Shown one piece after another: positions 26,799-51,456 of a stretch of DNA of 64,000 bases. Position 1 is the stretch's first letter. Every line of letters starts with the position of its first letter. The DNA comes from Nitrosospira briensis C-128 (GTDB lineage Bacteria > Pseudomonadota > Gammaproteobacteria > Burkholderiales > Nitrosomonadaceae), in assembly GCF_000619905.2 (NCBI RefSeq), contig NZ_CP012371.1:2873942-2937941 (forward strand). Direction: 5' to 3'. A program made the translations under genes and the position numbers. The notes below the pieces were generated by a model. It was not told the DNA's origin. It worked only from the letters and a program-made list of their open reading frames with translations, and made no database searches.

Positions 26799-27018
26799 GA
26801 TCAGTCACGCGATGATCCTAACCCGGATGTTTCATAAATTGACGCGCGCCCTCGCTGGTCTTTTGTTTCGTATGTAAATTTCGCTCAGTCGGACGTATGA
26901 ATAACTACGCCACTCTTTCACAAAATTTCCCTACAAAACAAAATCCTGCGCAATCATCACGCAAATTTATGAAATATCCGGGCTAAGCCTGTTTTTTTTC
27001 TGGAAACCTTCATGAAAG

Positions 27019-27221: not shown

Positions 27222-28292
27222 ATGAGTAGCAAAGCAGCAGCAACCATAGTTGGGATTGTGGCGACCGCATTGTATTCCGGGCTGGGAATGGCGGCAGCGG
27301 CGGATCCTTACCAGTTAAACTTGCCCGAGCCGCAAACGCCGATAGCCCAGCAGATATATGATCTTCACACGCTGGTTTTATGGATATGCCTGGTGATATT
27401 CGTGGGCGTGTTCGGGGTCATGTTGTATTCCATACTCAAGCACCGCAAATCCTTGAACTACCCGGCGGCCAACTTCCATCACAGCACCACGGTCGAGATC
27501 ATCTGGACCGGCATCCCGTTTCTCATCCTGGTTGGCATGGCCTATCCATCCACCAAGACCATCATCGACATGAAGGACACCTCCAGTTCCGAGATCACCA
27601 TCAAGAGCACCGGTTACCAGTGGAAATGGGGTTATGACTACCTGACGGGCGAAGGAGAAGGCATCAGTTTCCTGAGCAGCCTGTCCACCCCCCGCGACCA
27701 GATCGAAAACACCGCGCCCAAGGGTGAGAACTACCTGCTGGAAGTGGACAACCCGCTGGTTGTGCCCACCGGCAAGAAGATACGCGTACTGCTCACCGCC
27801 AACGACGTACTGCACGCCTGGTGGGTACCTGCCCTGGGCGTAAAGCAGGACGCCATCCCCGGCTTCATACGCGACGTCTGGTTCACCATTGAAAAGCCTG
27901 GCACCTATCGCGGCCAATGCGCCGAACTCTGCGGCAAGGAGCACGGCTTCATGCCGATCGTAGTCCAAGCGGTGACGCCGGAGAAATATGCCCAGTGGGT
28001 GGCTGAACAGAAAAGCAAGACCGCTGCGGCGACCGAGGACGTGAACAAAGTATTTACGGCGGACGAACTGAAAGCCGAAGGCGAGAAAGTCTATGCCGCC
28101 AACTGTGTTGCCTGCCATCAGGCCAATGGCCAGGGCATACCCGGGACCTTTGCCGCGCTGGACGGCTCGAAGATCGCCAACGGTCCCAAGGCCGGCCATG
28201 TCGACATTGTCATGAATGGCAAGGCCGGCACGGCAATGGCTGCATTCAACCTAAATCCGGTAGTTGGGCGGGGTGAAGTGTACGGCTTTTGA
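27222..28292 (+). CDS. coxB: cytochrome c oxidase subunit II, truncated by a foldback element
   Basis: Subunit II of the aa3-type oxidase. It has an N-terminal signal-like segment, two membrane helices, the CuA site (HAWW...CAELCGKEHGFM) and a fused C-terminal cytochrome c domain with haem motif CVACH. The frame is native for 342 residues up to GTAMAAF, which carries the likely Met ligand, then reads 14 residues of inserted element and stops at 28290-28292. The missing 37 codons lie at 28489-28599. The CuA domain is complete; the cytochrome c domain lacks its last helix. Confidence 0.9.
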   Translation: MSSKAAATIVGIVATALYSGLGMAAAADPYQLNLPEPQTPIAQQIYDLHTLVLWICLVIFVGVFGVMLYSILKHRKSLNYPAANFHHSTTVEIIWTGIPFLILVGMAYPSTKTIIDMKDTSSSEITIKSTGYQWKWGYDYLTGEGEGISFLSSLSTPRDQIENTAPKGENYLLEVDNPLVVPTGKKIRVLLTANDVLHAWWVPALGVKQDAIPGFIRDVWFTIEKPGTYRGQCAELCGKEHGFMPIVVQAVTPEKYAQWVAEQKSKTAAATEDVNKVFTADELKAEGEKVYAANCVACHQANGQGIPGTFAALDGSKIANGPKAGHVDIVMNGKAGTAMAAFNLNPVVGRGEVYGF

Positions 28293-28485
28293 GGTGCAGG
28301 GCAAGGCGCAACGACGCGGAATGGTCGTTCCATTCCAAGGAGTTGCAACGCAGCCATGTGCCTCAAAAACTGTGCAATTCACCCCGTAGCGCCCTCAGCT
28401 GGAAGGTGAACGTCAAATAATATGAAATATTGTTATTAATCATAGTACTGGTCTATTAAATGAGCGGTCAACTACCGGATTTAGG
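28250..28485. mobile_element. family C foldback element, short copy, inserted in coxB
   Basis: A 236-bp element with ends CCTAAATCCGGTAGTTG and CAACTACCGGATTTAGG, perfect inverted repeats, and longer inner arms that also pair. It is flanked by the exact 5-bp target duplication TTCAA (28245-28249 and 28486-28490). The second copy at 51070 is 387 bp and differs mainly by about 150 bp of extra GC-rich internal sequence. No transposase is encoded. Confidence 0.93.
28430..28459 (+). promoter_or_regulatory. possible outward promoter inside the family C element
   Basis: TTGTTA and TATTAA with an 18-bp spacer lie in the AT-rich right part of the element, pointing towards coxA. Its mate in the copy at 51070 is conserved. 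This is a sequence resemblance only. Confidence 0.3.
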
Positions 28486-28602
28486 TTCAAGCACCTGTCG
28501 GATGTACAAATCGCGGCGGTGGTCACCTACGAACGTAATGCCTGGGGGAATACCGCAGGAGACGTGGTGCAGCCATCGGAAATCAACCAGTTCAGAAAAT
28601 AG
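28486..28602 (+). pseudogene. coxB: severed 3' end of coxB
   Basis: Read in the original frame after the duplication, it encodes KHLSDVQIAAVVTYERNAWG, then NTAGDVVQPSEINQFRK and TAG. This is the conserved C-terminal helix and tail of CoxB cytochrome c domains. With the element and one TTCAA removed, GCATTCAAGCACCTG restores an uninterrupted 379-residue protein. In the present sequence it has no start. Confidence 0.92.
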
Positions 28603-28762
28603 CATCAAGGGGGACACCATGGCGCGCATGCCACGACATTGCAACCGCGACCGTTGCGATAGCGACATTGTGCATGCCTGTGGCGATCACTCCCGCGGCT
28701 TGATGTGCCGGCCGCTTTCCATCAACAGTACGTTTTAAAAAACCAGCATCAAGGAGACAATT

Positions 28763-30340
28763 ATGGCGGCAGTACAAGACGATATTGCACACGCGCACGA
28801 CCACCATCCCACCGGTATGATGCGCTGGCTGACTACGACCAACCACAAGGACATCGGTACGATGTATCTGTGGTTCAGTTTTCTGATGTTCCTGACCGGG
28901 GGCGTGATGGCGCTGACTATCCGCGCCGAGCTCTTCCAGCCCGGCATACAAGTCGTCAATCCGGAGTTCTTTAACCAGTTGACGACCATGCATGGTCTGG
29001 TGATGGTGTTCGGGGCCATCATGCCGGCGTTCGTCGGTTTCGCCAATTGGCAGATACCGATGATGATCGGGGCGCCCGACATGGCTTTTGCACGTATGAA
29101 CAACTGGAGTTTCTGGCTATTGCCCCCGGCAGCTTTGCTGCTGATTACCTCGTTCTTCGTGCCCGGCGGCGCGGCTGCCGGTGGCTGGACATTTTATCCG
29201 CCGCTGTCGGTGCAGATGGGCATAGGCATGGATATGATGATTTTCGCCATTCATATCCTTGGCGCTTCGTCCATCATGGGGTCAATCAACATCATTACGA
29301 CCATCCTCAACATGCGGGCGCCGGGCATGACATTGATGAAAATGCCGATGTTCGTATGGACCTGGCTCATCACCGCCTATCTTCTGGTTCTGGTGATGCC
29401 GGTGCTGGCGGGAGTGGTCACCATGCTGCTGACGGACCGCAACTTCGGCACCAACTTCTTCAATGCAGCCGGCGGCGGTGATCCGGTATTGTTCCAGCAT
29501 ATCTTCTGGTTCTTCGGCCATCCCGAAGTCTATATCATGATCCTGCCATCGTTCGGCATCGTCTCGGAAATTATCCCGGCCTTTGCGCGCAAGCCATTAT
29601 TCGGCTATTCCTCGATGGTGTATGCCACCGCCTCGATCGCCATCCTGTCCTGCATCGTCTGGGCTCACCACATGTTCACTGCCGGCATGCCGGTAACGGG
29701 ACAGTTGTTTTTCATGTATGGCACCATGCTGATCGCGGTTCCGACCGGCGTGAAAGTATTCAACTGGACCGCCACCATGTGGCGCGGTTCCATGACCTTC
29801 GAGACACCCATGCTGTTTTCTATCGGGTTCATCTTCCTGTTCGTTATTGGCGGATTCAGCGGAGTTGTGTGCGCGATAGTGCCGATCGATGTCCAGGTGC
29901 AGGATACCTACTATGTCATTGCGCATTTCCACTATGTGCTGGTATCGGGCTCACTCTTTGCCATATTTGCCGGGACTTACTACTGGCTGCCGAAATGGAC
30001 CGGACACATGTATGACGAGACGCTGGGCAAATGGCATTTCTGGCTATCCATGTTCTTTTTCAACCTCACATTCTTTGTGCAGCATTTCCTGGGGTTGGCG
30101 GGCATGCCGCGTCGTATTCCTGACTACGCGCTCCAATTCGCCGATTTCAACATGATTTCCAGCATAGGCGCATTTGGTTTCGGCTCCACGCAATTGCTGT
30201 TCCTTTACGTAGTGCTGAAGTGCATCCGCGGGGGTGCAAAAGCGCCGGTAAAACCTTGGGAAGGTGCGAAAACGCTGGAATGGACTTTGCCGTCTCCCGC
30301 GCCCTATCATACCTTCGTAGTTCCGCCCGTCATTAAGTAA
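28763..30340 (+). CDS. coxA: cytochrome c oxidase subunit I
   Basis: The 525-residue catalytic subunit with twelve membrane helices, holding haem a, haem a3 and CuB. Clear signatures are TTNHKDIGTMYL, the low-spin haem His in TMHGLVMVFGAIMP, WFFGHPEVYIMILP with the cross-linked His-Tyr pair, AHHMFTAGMP, and HFHYVLVSG. It reduces oxygen to water while pumping protons. AAGGAGA precedes ATG 28763. Expression could be affected by the element upstream in coxB. Confidence 0.98.
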   Translation: MAAVQDDIAHAHDHHPTGMMRWLTTTNHKDIGTMYLWFSFLMFLTGGVMALTIRAELFQPGIQVVNPEFFNQLTTMHGLVMVFGAIMPAFVGFANWQIPMMIGAPDMAFARMNNWSFWLLPPAALLLITSFFVPGGAAAGGWTFYPPLSVQMGIGMDMMIFAIHILGASSIMGSINIITTILNMRAPGMTLMKMPMFVWTWLITAYLLVLVMPVLAGVVTMLLTDRNFGTNFFNAAGGGDPVLFQHIFWFFGHPEVYIMILPSFGIVSEIIPAFARKPLFGYSSMVYATASIAILSCIVWAHHMFTAGMPVTGQLFFMYGTMLIAVPTGVKVFNWTATMWRGSMTFETPMLFSIGFIFLFVIGGFSGVVCAIVPIDVQVQDTYYVIAHFHYVLVSGSLFAIFAGTYYWLPKWTGHMYDETLGKWHFWLSMFFFNLTFFVQHFLGLAGMPRRIPDYALQFADFNMISSIGAFGFGSTQLLFLYVVLKCIRGGAKAPVKPWEGAKTLEWTLPSPAPYHTFVVPPVIK

Positions 30341-30361: not shown

Positions 30362-30517
30362 ATGTCAAAGCATATGAATATGTCCGACGACATGGATATC
30401 CCGGAAAACGTGGACATCGAGAGAAAGTTGGCATCGATCAGAACAGCGTTGTTCGTACTTGCTTACTCTCTGGTCCTACCGGTGGCGTATTACTTATGGC
30501 AAGCTTACCGTTGTTGA
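30362..30517 (+). CDS. 51-residue single-helix membrane protein in the cox operon
   Basis: A short open frame with a strong AGGAGAG site and 21 bp after coxA. The protein starts MSKHMNMSDDMDIPENVDIE, then has one membrane helix (TALFVLAYSLVLPVAYYLW) and a short tail. Its place between coxA and coxC suggests a small subunit or assembly peptide of the oxidase. It does not resemble CtaG (Cox11), which is often found at this position and is absent here. Confidence 0.65.
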   Translation: MSKHMNMSDDMDIPENVDIERKLASIRTALFVLAYSLVLPVAYYLWQAYRC

Positions 30518-31470: not shown

Positions 31471-31962
31471 ATGATTTTATCCCGCACAACTCAGTATGCC
31501 ATTCAGGCCCTTATTTATATGGCAACGCAACCCCGTGGCGTGGCCGTACTGAATCGCACCATTGCCGACCACCTGAGGTCGTCCCCAACCTATCTTGCCA
31601 AGATTCTGCAAGACTTGTCCCGCGGCAACCTGCTTTATTCTTTCCGCGGAAAACAAGGAGGCTTTTGCCTGAGGGAAAATAGCGACCAAATTAATCTGAT
31701 GCAGATCGCCATCCTTACCGAGGGTCCCGGATTCACCGATGGCTGCGTGCTGGGACTCAAGGTTTGCAGTGATAAAACGCCCTGTCCGATGCATGTCAAA
31801 TGGTGGCCAATCAAGCAGGAGATCGTGAAGCTGTTGCAGAACCAGACCCTGGACCTGCTTGCCGCCATGGTCGTAAGCGGCAGATATAAACTGACCGATT
31901 TACCGGAGGCCGCACTTGGCGGTCAAAACCGCCTGGGCGAAAGCTGCCCGGACGGATTGTAA
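31471..31962 (+). CDS. Rrf2 family transcriptional regulator
   Basis: A 163-residue regulator. The N-terminal winged helix (MILSRTTQYAIQALIYMA...YLAKILQDLSRGNLL) is typical of Rrf2 proteins. Three cysteines in CVLGLKVCSDKTPCPMH are spaced as in IscR/NsrR-like members that hold an iron-sulfur cluster, so it may sense redox state, NO or cluster supply. It lies 55 bp after coxC and 19 bp before the FNR-type gene. Confidence 0.88.
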   Translation: MILSRTTQYAIQALIYMATQPRGVAVLNRTIADHLRSSPTYLAKILQDLSRGNLLYSFRGKQGGFCLRENSDQINLMQIAILTEGPGFTDGCVLGLKVCSDKTPCPMHVKWWPIKQEIVKLLQNQTLDLLAAMVVSGRYKLTDLPEAALGGQNRLGESCPDGL

Positions 31963-31981
31963 AATTTTCAGCGGAGCTAAC

Positions 31982-32773
31982 ATGACCAAATGCTCGTCGA
32001 ATATATCACCCGCTACTGATAACCCGGTTGACGTTCCCCTGGATTGCAGGGATTGTGGCGCTTATAAGTTATGCATGTCCCTTTGGTTGAAGACGGGTGA
32101 CGCATCTTTGCTTGAGCGAGTCGTCAAAAGAAAGCACGTGTTTAAACGCGGAGATGTTTTGTATCGCATGGGGCAGCCGATGGAATACATGTATGTCATC
32201 CGCGGCGGATCAGTCAAAACCAGCGTCAGCACCGAGGACGGGCAGGTGCAGGTTATCGGTTTTCACATAGTAGGAGAATTGCTGGGTTTGAACGCCATCG
32301 AGAGCCGGCAACATAACTGTGAAGCCCAGGCGACGGGAATTACCTCTGTTTGTGAAGTTTCCATCGATCGCTTTGAAGAGCTGGCAAGTACGGATCCCGC
32401 CATTCAGCACGAAATTCTCAAAATCATGAGCGCGGAAATCCATCACAGCCATGAATTGCTGCTATTGCTGGGCAAGCATAATGCTGAAGAGCGTCTGGCT
32501 ACGTTCTTGCTCAGCCTGTCTCAGCAGTTCGCACGGCGCCATTGTTCGGCTACCGAATTCGACCTGAGCATGTCGCGCAGCGATATAGGAAACCATCTGG
32601 GAATCGCGGAGGAGACCGTTTGCCGTATATTTGCACGGTTTCAGGATGACGGCCTCATCAGCAGCCGGTATAGGCGTGTAAAGCTGAACGATCTGGAGCG
32701 TTTGAAGCAGATCGTCTATCACCGACGTACCAGCAACGCTCGGGATTCCGTGGATCGCCAGCTCGAAGCCTGA
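31982..32773 (+). CDS. FNR-type Crp/Fnr family regulator
   Basis: A 263-residue regulator with a cyclic-nucleotide-like sensor domain and a C-terminal helix-turn-helix. N-terminal cysteines in LDCRDCGAYKLCMSLW plus the one in RQHNCEAQ reproduce the four ligands of the oxygen-sensing [4Fe-4S] cluster of FNR. The recognition helix EETVCRIFARFQDDGLI keeps the Glu and Arg that read TTGAT, with Cys replacing the usual Ser. A matching site lies upstream of coxB. Start at ATG 31982 after CGGAG. Confidence 0.88.
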   Translation: MTKCSSNISPATDNPVDVPLDCRDCGAYKLCMSLWLKTGDASLLERVVKRKHVFKRGDVLYRMGQPMEYMYVIRGGSVKTSVSTEDGQVQVIGFHIVGELLGLNAIESRQHNCEAQATGITSVCEVSIDRFEELASTDPAIQHEILKIMSAEIHHSHELLLLLGKHNAEERLATFLLSLSQQFARRHCSATEFDLSMSRSDIGNHLGIAEETVCRIFARFQDDGLISSRYRRVKLNDLERLKQIVYHRRTSNARDSVDRQLEA

Positions 32774-39529: not shown

Positions 39530-39717
39530 CGATACCCCCCAAAAGTGGAACAAATTAAATCCCGCGTAATACTAGCATACCGCTGAGGTGTAGTGGCAAT
39601 GCCTGTTGAAAACATTATCCCGAATCCGCCCCATAGCGAGTTCACCGAAGAGGTAAAGCTCATGGGTACAAAAAATCCTTTTCGGTCATCGCTTTTAGTT
39701 TACAAATGAGCTGAAAA

Positions 39718-39743
39718 ATGAGTGGTCACCTACTGGATTTAGG
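39718..39743. repeat. degraded right end of a family C element
   Basis: This 26-bp stretch matches the right end of the element in coxB (28460-28485) at 23 positions, including the terminal GGATTTAGG. No left end is visible nearby, so it looks like a relic in the gap between TIGR04073 copies 1 and 2. Confidence 0.55.
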
Positions 39744-51069: not shown

Positions 51070-51456
51070 CCTAGATCCGGTAGTTGGACGGGGTGAAGTG
51101 TACGGTTTTTGGGTGCAGGGCAAGGCGCAACGACGCGGAATGTGACCGCGCAGGGCGGAGCAGTGCCTTCCGCAGGAAGGTGCGACCCCGAAGCGGGATG
51201 TGGGCACCCCCTTGCGTGTGGAACGCGATCGCGGGATCCCCTGCGCTGCCCGATCCCCGCTTCGCGGGGTCCCCTCGGGCGACGCTTCGGGGCGCCGTTC
51301 CATTCCAAGGAGTTGCAACGCTGCCATGTGCCGCAAAAACCGTGCAATTCACCCTGTAGCGGCCCTCACCCGGAAGGTAAGTGCCAAATAATATGAAATA
51401 TTGTTATTAATCATAACACTGATCTATTAAATGAGCGGTCAACTACCGGATTTAGG
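51070..51456. mobile_element. family C foldback element, long copy, between era and recO
   Basis: A 387-bp copy of the element found in coxB, beginning CCTAGATCCGGTAGTTG and ending CAACTACCGGATTTAGG, with the 5-bp duplication ATCAT on both sides (51065-51069 and 51457-51461). It contains about 150 bp of extra GC-rich internal sequence (roughly 51140-51298) absent from the coxB copy. No transposase gene is visible. Confidence 0.92.

Follow-up and report, generated by a model that had tools for sequence, protein, structure and literature searches.

Why does coxB of Nitrosospira briensis C-128 run into a short foldback sequence, with its own missing codons lying undamaged on the far side? And what does this mean for a cell that carries the gene as part of a respiratory oxidase? 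We analysed a stretch of 64,000 nucleotides (the window; contig NZ_CP012371.1, positions 2,873,942 to 2,937,941) that contains this coxB and the cox genes downstream of it (Table 1). An earlier note, made from the letters alone, had described a 236-bp element with 17-bp perfect inverted ends, bordered on both sides by TTCAA. Direct reading finds this description exact to the base, with a match of 17/17 bp between the terminal inverted repeats. Removal of the element and one TTCAA restores a single frame of 379 residues, just as had been claimed, and the severed tail (28486-28602) is free of stops and frameshifts. We consider it highly probable that a non-autonomous MITE-type element of Nitrosospira cut the coxB of an accessory cox operon, and that the loss is tolerated thanks to an intact copy.

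Table 1. Features of the interrupted coxB, the inserted element and the adjoining genes (window coordinates).
Feature	Position	Strand	Remark
Truncated coxB, 356 residues (342 native + 14 element-coded)	27222..28292	+	Pfam COX2, COX2_TM, cytochrome c families
TTCAA, left copy of target duplication	28245..28249	.	
MITE-type element, 236 bp	28250..28485	.	direct reading of sequence
Left terminal inverted repeat, 17 bp, CCTAAATCCGGTAGTTG	28250..28266	.	
Internal hairpin of element	28269..28386	.	34-nt arms 28269-28302 + 28353-28386, 79% complementary; folding
TGA, new stop codon inside element	28290..28292	+	from G to A change, 1/18 short copies
Right terminal inverted repeat, 17 bp, exact reverse complement of CCTAAATCCGGTAGTTG	28469..28485	.	
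TTCAA, right copy of target duplication	28486..28490	.	
Severed coxB 3' end, native residues 342-379 + stop, beyond reach of translation	28486..28602	+	121/121 nt (28486-28606) identical to second coxB
coxA, intact, 525 residues	28763..30340	+	Pfam COX1
51-residue reading frame, position of ctaG in other operon	30362..30517	+	no Pfam match
coxC, intact, 283 residues	30564..31415	+	Pfam COX3
Rrf2-type regulator	31471..31962	+	part of conserved surroundings of accessory operon type
Crp-type regulator	31916..32773	+	part of conserved surroundings of accessory operon type

Was this gene ever whole? The earlier note had asked whether the genome holds another coxB, and a near-identical, intact one is found at C1:1605125-1606153. 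It encodes all 379 residues and reads GCATTCAAGCACCTG at the site, precisely the empty site that had been predicted. Before the site the two genes differ at 11/1028 nt; the severed tail matches its counterpart throughout. A comparison with related strains had also been proposed: all 18 other coxB copies of the genus that reach the site are uninterrupted (from 12 of the 22 relatives; in the other ten the contigs end or a full copy was not found), as is one copy from a sister genus. The empty site in the second coxB and the uninterrupted genus copies prove, by sequence comparison, that this coxB was once intact and that a short inverted-repeat element inserted into it. The event had been called recent or tolerated, which the identity of the tail to the intact copy supports. 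A near-identical spare coxB exists and would explain the tolerance, and the unchanged tail indicates either an insertion that is recent on a genus-wide time scale or later homogenisation of its flanks. The element itself departs from the majority of short copies at 10/236 sites (3 to 31 in the other short copies), a divergence that exceeds or about equals that of 11 of the 17 others; next to an unchanged tail, this implies a source copy that had already diverged, or again later homogenisation of the flanks. We regard a loss of function, recent and tolerated, as the most likely reading.

The genome carries at least 40 copies of the element, assembled from 62 matching stretches; this number is a lower bound, as 40 of 96 candidates were scored. 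Its 17-bp end has 162 matches in the genome at no more than three mismatches, compared with 5 when the pattern is reversed, and the 5-bp duplications are identical in 30/40 scored copies and differ by at most one mismatch in 38/40. These match numbers, the copy number and the recurrent duplications show that the element is not a product of chance. The left duplication fits WTNAW in 38 of the 40. Eighteen scored copies measure 235-237 bp, and 22 are longer or odd-sized, most of them 384-388 bp long through some 150 bp of additional sequence in the middle. With respect to the defining features of a MITE, the element has a length below about 500 bp without a transposase, terminal inverted repeats, a 5-bp duplication and many dispersed copies; its longest reading frame spans 43 aa (frames of at least 40 aa considered). 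Matches occur in 18/23 genomes of the genus, our own included, and one element end was found in 23/120 genomes of the family, in 3 of 4 genera. Judged by these matches, the MITE-type element family is genus-wide. A scan of a plasmid collection gave no match, and we found no report of such elements in Nitrosospira in the open-access full-text literature.

Which transposase could move it? Three family searches and scans for the ends found no transposase between element ends (CCTRAATCCGGYAGTTG). As a possible source we considered IS1380, whose elements have CC ends and duplicate 4-5 bp. Matches to the corresponding family PF13701 in the own genome are two fragments without such ends nearby, and across the genus they occur in 6/23 genomes, with 0/11 fetched loci enclosed by such ends. 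In genome G002 (locus L199, ~1501-1811), some 57 bp separate an IS1380-type transposase fragment from a short element that is complete and has these ends, a proximity that may be fortuitous or may point to the transposase partner. Derivation from IS1634 was rejected as well, the DUF4277 transposase domain (PF14104) being present in 0/23 genus genomes. The four PF01609 matches in the own genome are not located between element ends, and the five-copy transposon of genome G021 has different ends. Three end pairs spaced 600-3000 bp apart were considered, none of which has matching duplications; a pair of 1718 bp at 662-666 kb has cytochrome genes between its ends, and no transposase. No long element was present in 31 loci taken from the family-wide end scan and from one viral contig.

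RNA of the coxB-site element is predicted to fold with -116 kcal/mol (z -11.4), and the coxB-sense strand folds better than its complement (-116 vs -96). In an alignment of 17 short copies, those imperfect hairpin pairs that are fixed read as G-U on the coxB-sense strand, not as A-C; this might hint at constraint on the RNA level. None of 83 predicted pairs was changed on both sides in the 17 copies, so covariation lends no support to a conserved RNA beyond shared sequence.

What protein does the interrupted gene specify? Native CoxB ends at F342, within the motif GTAMAAF, and is followed by the 14 element-coded residues NLNPVVGRGEVYGF and a TGA. The frame that enters the element from coxB is frame 2. 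On the inverted end, frame 3 stops immediately and frame 1 within 5 to 8 codons, and only frame 2 stays open. The new stop arises from an A at element position 43, seen in one of 18 short copies; the majority sequence would append 53 residues instead. The earlier note had stated that 37 codons are lost, that the CuA domain is intact, and that the 14 foreign residues replace the haem domain's last helix. Native residues 343-379 are indeed gone from the product, Pfam domain matches retain the CuA domain, and homology supports the loss of the helix. The Pfam Cytochrome_CBB3 score falls from 49.5 bits in the intact protein to 36.9 bits in the truncated one, the Cytochrom_C match shrinks from profile positions 2-85 to 2-44 of 90, and in alignment the lost part corresponds to the terminal segment of the cytochrome domain in solved nitrite reductases. 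Seven columns that are invariant across 21 homologues fall past the break. The CXXCH and Met columns, conserved in 21/21 homologues, are kept in truncated CoxB; the Met is that of GTAMAAF, by alignment the probable axial ligand. AlphaFold models, both of low confidence, give a hint in the same direction: mean pLDDT is 65.8 for truncated CoxB and 62.6 for an intact homologue (L097), with values for the haem part of 39-66 in the former and, in the homologue, 56-88 (residues 281 on). Most likely, truncated CoxB does not form a stable haem c domain; it could still serve through CuA. Upstream of the break, residue 252 is changed from Glu to Thr by a two-base change at 27975-27976; Glu is present in 16/16 comparable relatives.

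The earlier note had regarded the surroundings as an otherwise normal cox operon. This does not hold: the gene belongs to an accessory operon without ctaG, and a fuller operon lies intact elsewhere in the genome, with the order coxB, coxA, ctaG, coxC, SURF1, one further frame and a UbiA-family gene. The window operon continues into Rrf2- and Crp-type genes, a layout found in 7/7 genomes where it was fetched, on account of which it is, by gene order, an old and conserved accessory operon. Among the genomes judged, the insertion in its coxB occurs in this genome only. About 470 nt separate the new stop from the start of coxA at 28763, with the element hairpin in between, and from this we infer a polar effect of hairpin and untranslated RNA on coxA. 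The accessory operon is probably impaired or lost, with the intact coxA and coxC of the cut operon as a point against decay. Upstream of the window coxB, a stretch of 169 bp (26818-26986) is 95% identical to the stretch 5' of the second coxB; no terminal inverted repeats of the element family were seen in it. In genome G019, a different species, coxC of the accessory-type operon (C9, locus L212, 7094-7942) carries an in-frame TAG and coxB is not homogenised (81.4%), a hint that this operon may be decaying independently there.

How alike are the two operons kept? Within one genome, the two coxB genes are 95.7-99.8% alike in 6/7 genomes (the G007 pair, one of the six, was compared over a 62-residue fragment) and 81.4% alike in G019, against averages of 80.5-82.7% between different genomes. 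Paralogues from one genome pair up in the coxB tree, with support of 1.000 in our own genome, G006 and G011, 0.999 in G021 and 0.604 in G020; the G019 pair stands apart. The coxC pairs are 95.6-98.9% alike in four genomes and 86.9-89.6% in two (the G019 value of 40.7% was dropped as invalid, since that copy has an in-frame stop), and well-joined pairs in the coxC tree are confined to our own genome and G021. For coxA the within-genome values are 83.2-90.3%, and the own pair joins in the tree. The shared operon layout across genomes argues against separate recent duplications, an argument that partial conversion of coxA blurs. By these identities and trees, the coxB genes of the two operons evolve in concert, and the coxC genes do so less evenly. 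Concerted evolution has been described for the amo, hao and cyc genes of Nitrosomonadales (PMC6053082). Both cases consist of near-identical paralogues kept alike within a genome, across the group; here the gene is coxB and the pattern is seen in 6/7 genomes. Table 1 of that paper lists no cox genes, and 'cox' does not occur in its main text.

Where else does the element insert? In 17 of the 40 scored copies, the duplicated pentamer and the stop of a frame of at least 80 aa overlap; among 1336 flanking WTNAW sites the share is 4.6%. When genes are defined more strictly, the 40 copies divide into 9 at stops, 22 intergenic and 9 interior (background 18, 257 and 1061), and for stop versus intergenic positions the own-genome scored copies give a Fisher p of 0.0005. 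Sixteen copies from other genomes comprise 3 at stops, 7 intergenic and 6 interior (background 5, 61 and 353; p 0.066). The element is hence over-represented at stop codons in its own genome, the stricter set included, in counts that use uncurated frames as genes and in which target preference and selection are not kept apart. Five of the nine interior copies were inspected, and coxB is the sole plain cut within a conserved gene. The others lie near the end of a CysK-like frame, upstream of likely starts (L019, L021) and at the start of recO; L020, L027, L031 and L233 make up the remaining four. A bolder reading would have the transposon spread along stop codons, as WTNAW holds TAA or TGA and the duplication keeps the stop. 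The coxB copy would then be a rare internal hit that survived through a duplicate maintained by conversion, that now blocks or escapes conversion, and that leaves the accessory oxidase with a CuA-only subunit II. We think this rather unlikely.

As we picture the event, a transposase acting in trans would have moved the non-autonomous MITE-type element (about 236 bp, 17-bp inverted ends) into a 5-bp WTNAW target, TTCAA, inside coxB. The target was duplicated, translation of coxB now enters the element in frame 2, adds 14 residues and stops, and 37 residues, the fused cytochrome c domain's C-terminal helix among them, are no longer made; all this can be read from the DNA itself. The long stable hairpin and some 470 nt of untranslated RNA before coxA would account for part of the impairment of the operon, and the intact coxB of the fuller operon, which is present, would compensate.

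Could the shortened protein instead be a working subunit, the accessory oxidase having passed from a caa3-like to an aa3-like form in which soluble cytochrome c feeds CuA? The intact CuA domain, coxA and coxC would fit such a functional truncation, as would the retained CXXCH and Met columns and the change of G to A at position 43 of the element, which leaves 14 instead of 53 foreign residues at the end of the protein. The residual haem domain, however, has been kept rather than removed, and lacks its packing helix; the long hairpin stands between coxB and coxA, the otherwise conserved Glu at residue 252 has been replaced, and none of the 18 genus copies reaching the site shows a parallel truncation. 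We therefore hold it to be unlikely, and prefer tolerated loss of function.

An artefact would require that a repeat was wrongly joined into one of two cox operons that are near-identical over coxB and coxC, and the genome paper does blame near-identical repeats for trouble in assembly (PMC4964001). Yet the same paper reports PacBio long reads at 176x, the native pentamer is perfectly duplicated, as in 30/40 scored copies, and the coxB-site copy has changes that are unique among short copies; an error of this kind is very improbable. Least credible of all, to the point of being negligible, is an intron-like or read-through element that still allows whole CoxB to be made by splicing or read-through. 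Beyond the element the codons are undamaged and in register, as it would demand, but the TGA shuts the frame after 14 residues, Rfam, group I and II introns included, finds nothing above threshold in the window except a tRNA, and the duplication and the occurrence of the element at other, mostly non-genic sites fit a transposon.

Tolerated loss by transposition is a kind of event already known rather than a new system, and the review PMC10969869 offers a precedent in Chunjie, a MITE of Geobacter uraniireducens. Chunjie has a full length of 235 bp, close to the 236 bp found here, and some 38 complete copies, whose ends are conserved and whose direct repeats vary in size, and it disrupts one of two copies of a phosphate-uptake operon, a parallel to the loss of one of two coxB genes. 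Host and operon are different, and the two elements are likened by description, not by sequence or target. Other bacterial MITEs (QMITE1 and QMITE2 of Coxiella; the families of PMC2229807) are described as likewise shorter than 500 bp, with inverted ends, target duplication, many copies and a stable hairpin, and as mostly intergenic or in 3' regions; the Nitrosospira element is set apart from them by its 5-bp WTNAW target and its own ends. Rickettsia palindromic elements, too, are short palindromes within conserved protein genes (PMC10969869, PMC2229807). Unlike these, which keep the frame open, the element in coxB closes it after 14 residues and the protein is not continued, so we rejected assignment to that type.

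The locus offers a filled site and an empty site within one genome, in a respiratory oxidase gene of a soil ammonia-oxidising nitrifier. Such a natural truncation of coxB allows a test of the need for the fused cytochrome c domain. As the insertion struck a gene pair that is apparently kept alike by conversion, strains can show what becomes of a broken copy when genes evolve in concert.

Two further copies of the element lie in the window. One, at 51070-51456, is of the long form (387 bp, ATCAT flanks) and is situated between an era-like gene and recO, where the duplicated pentamer on the other strand holds the likely start codon of recO. The other, at 39619-39743, is an old copy of 125 bp with a degenerate left end and ATTAT on both sides.
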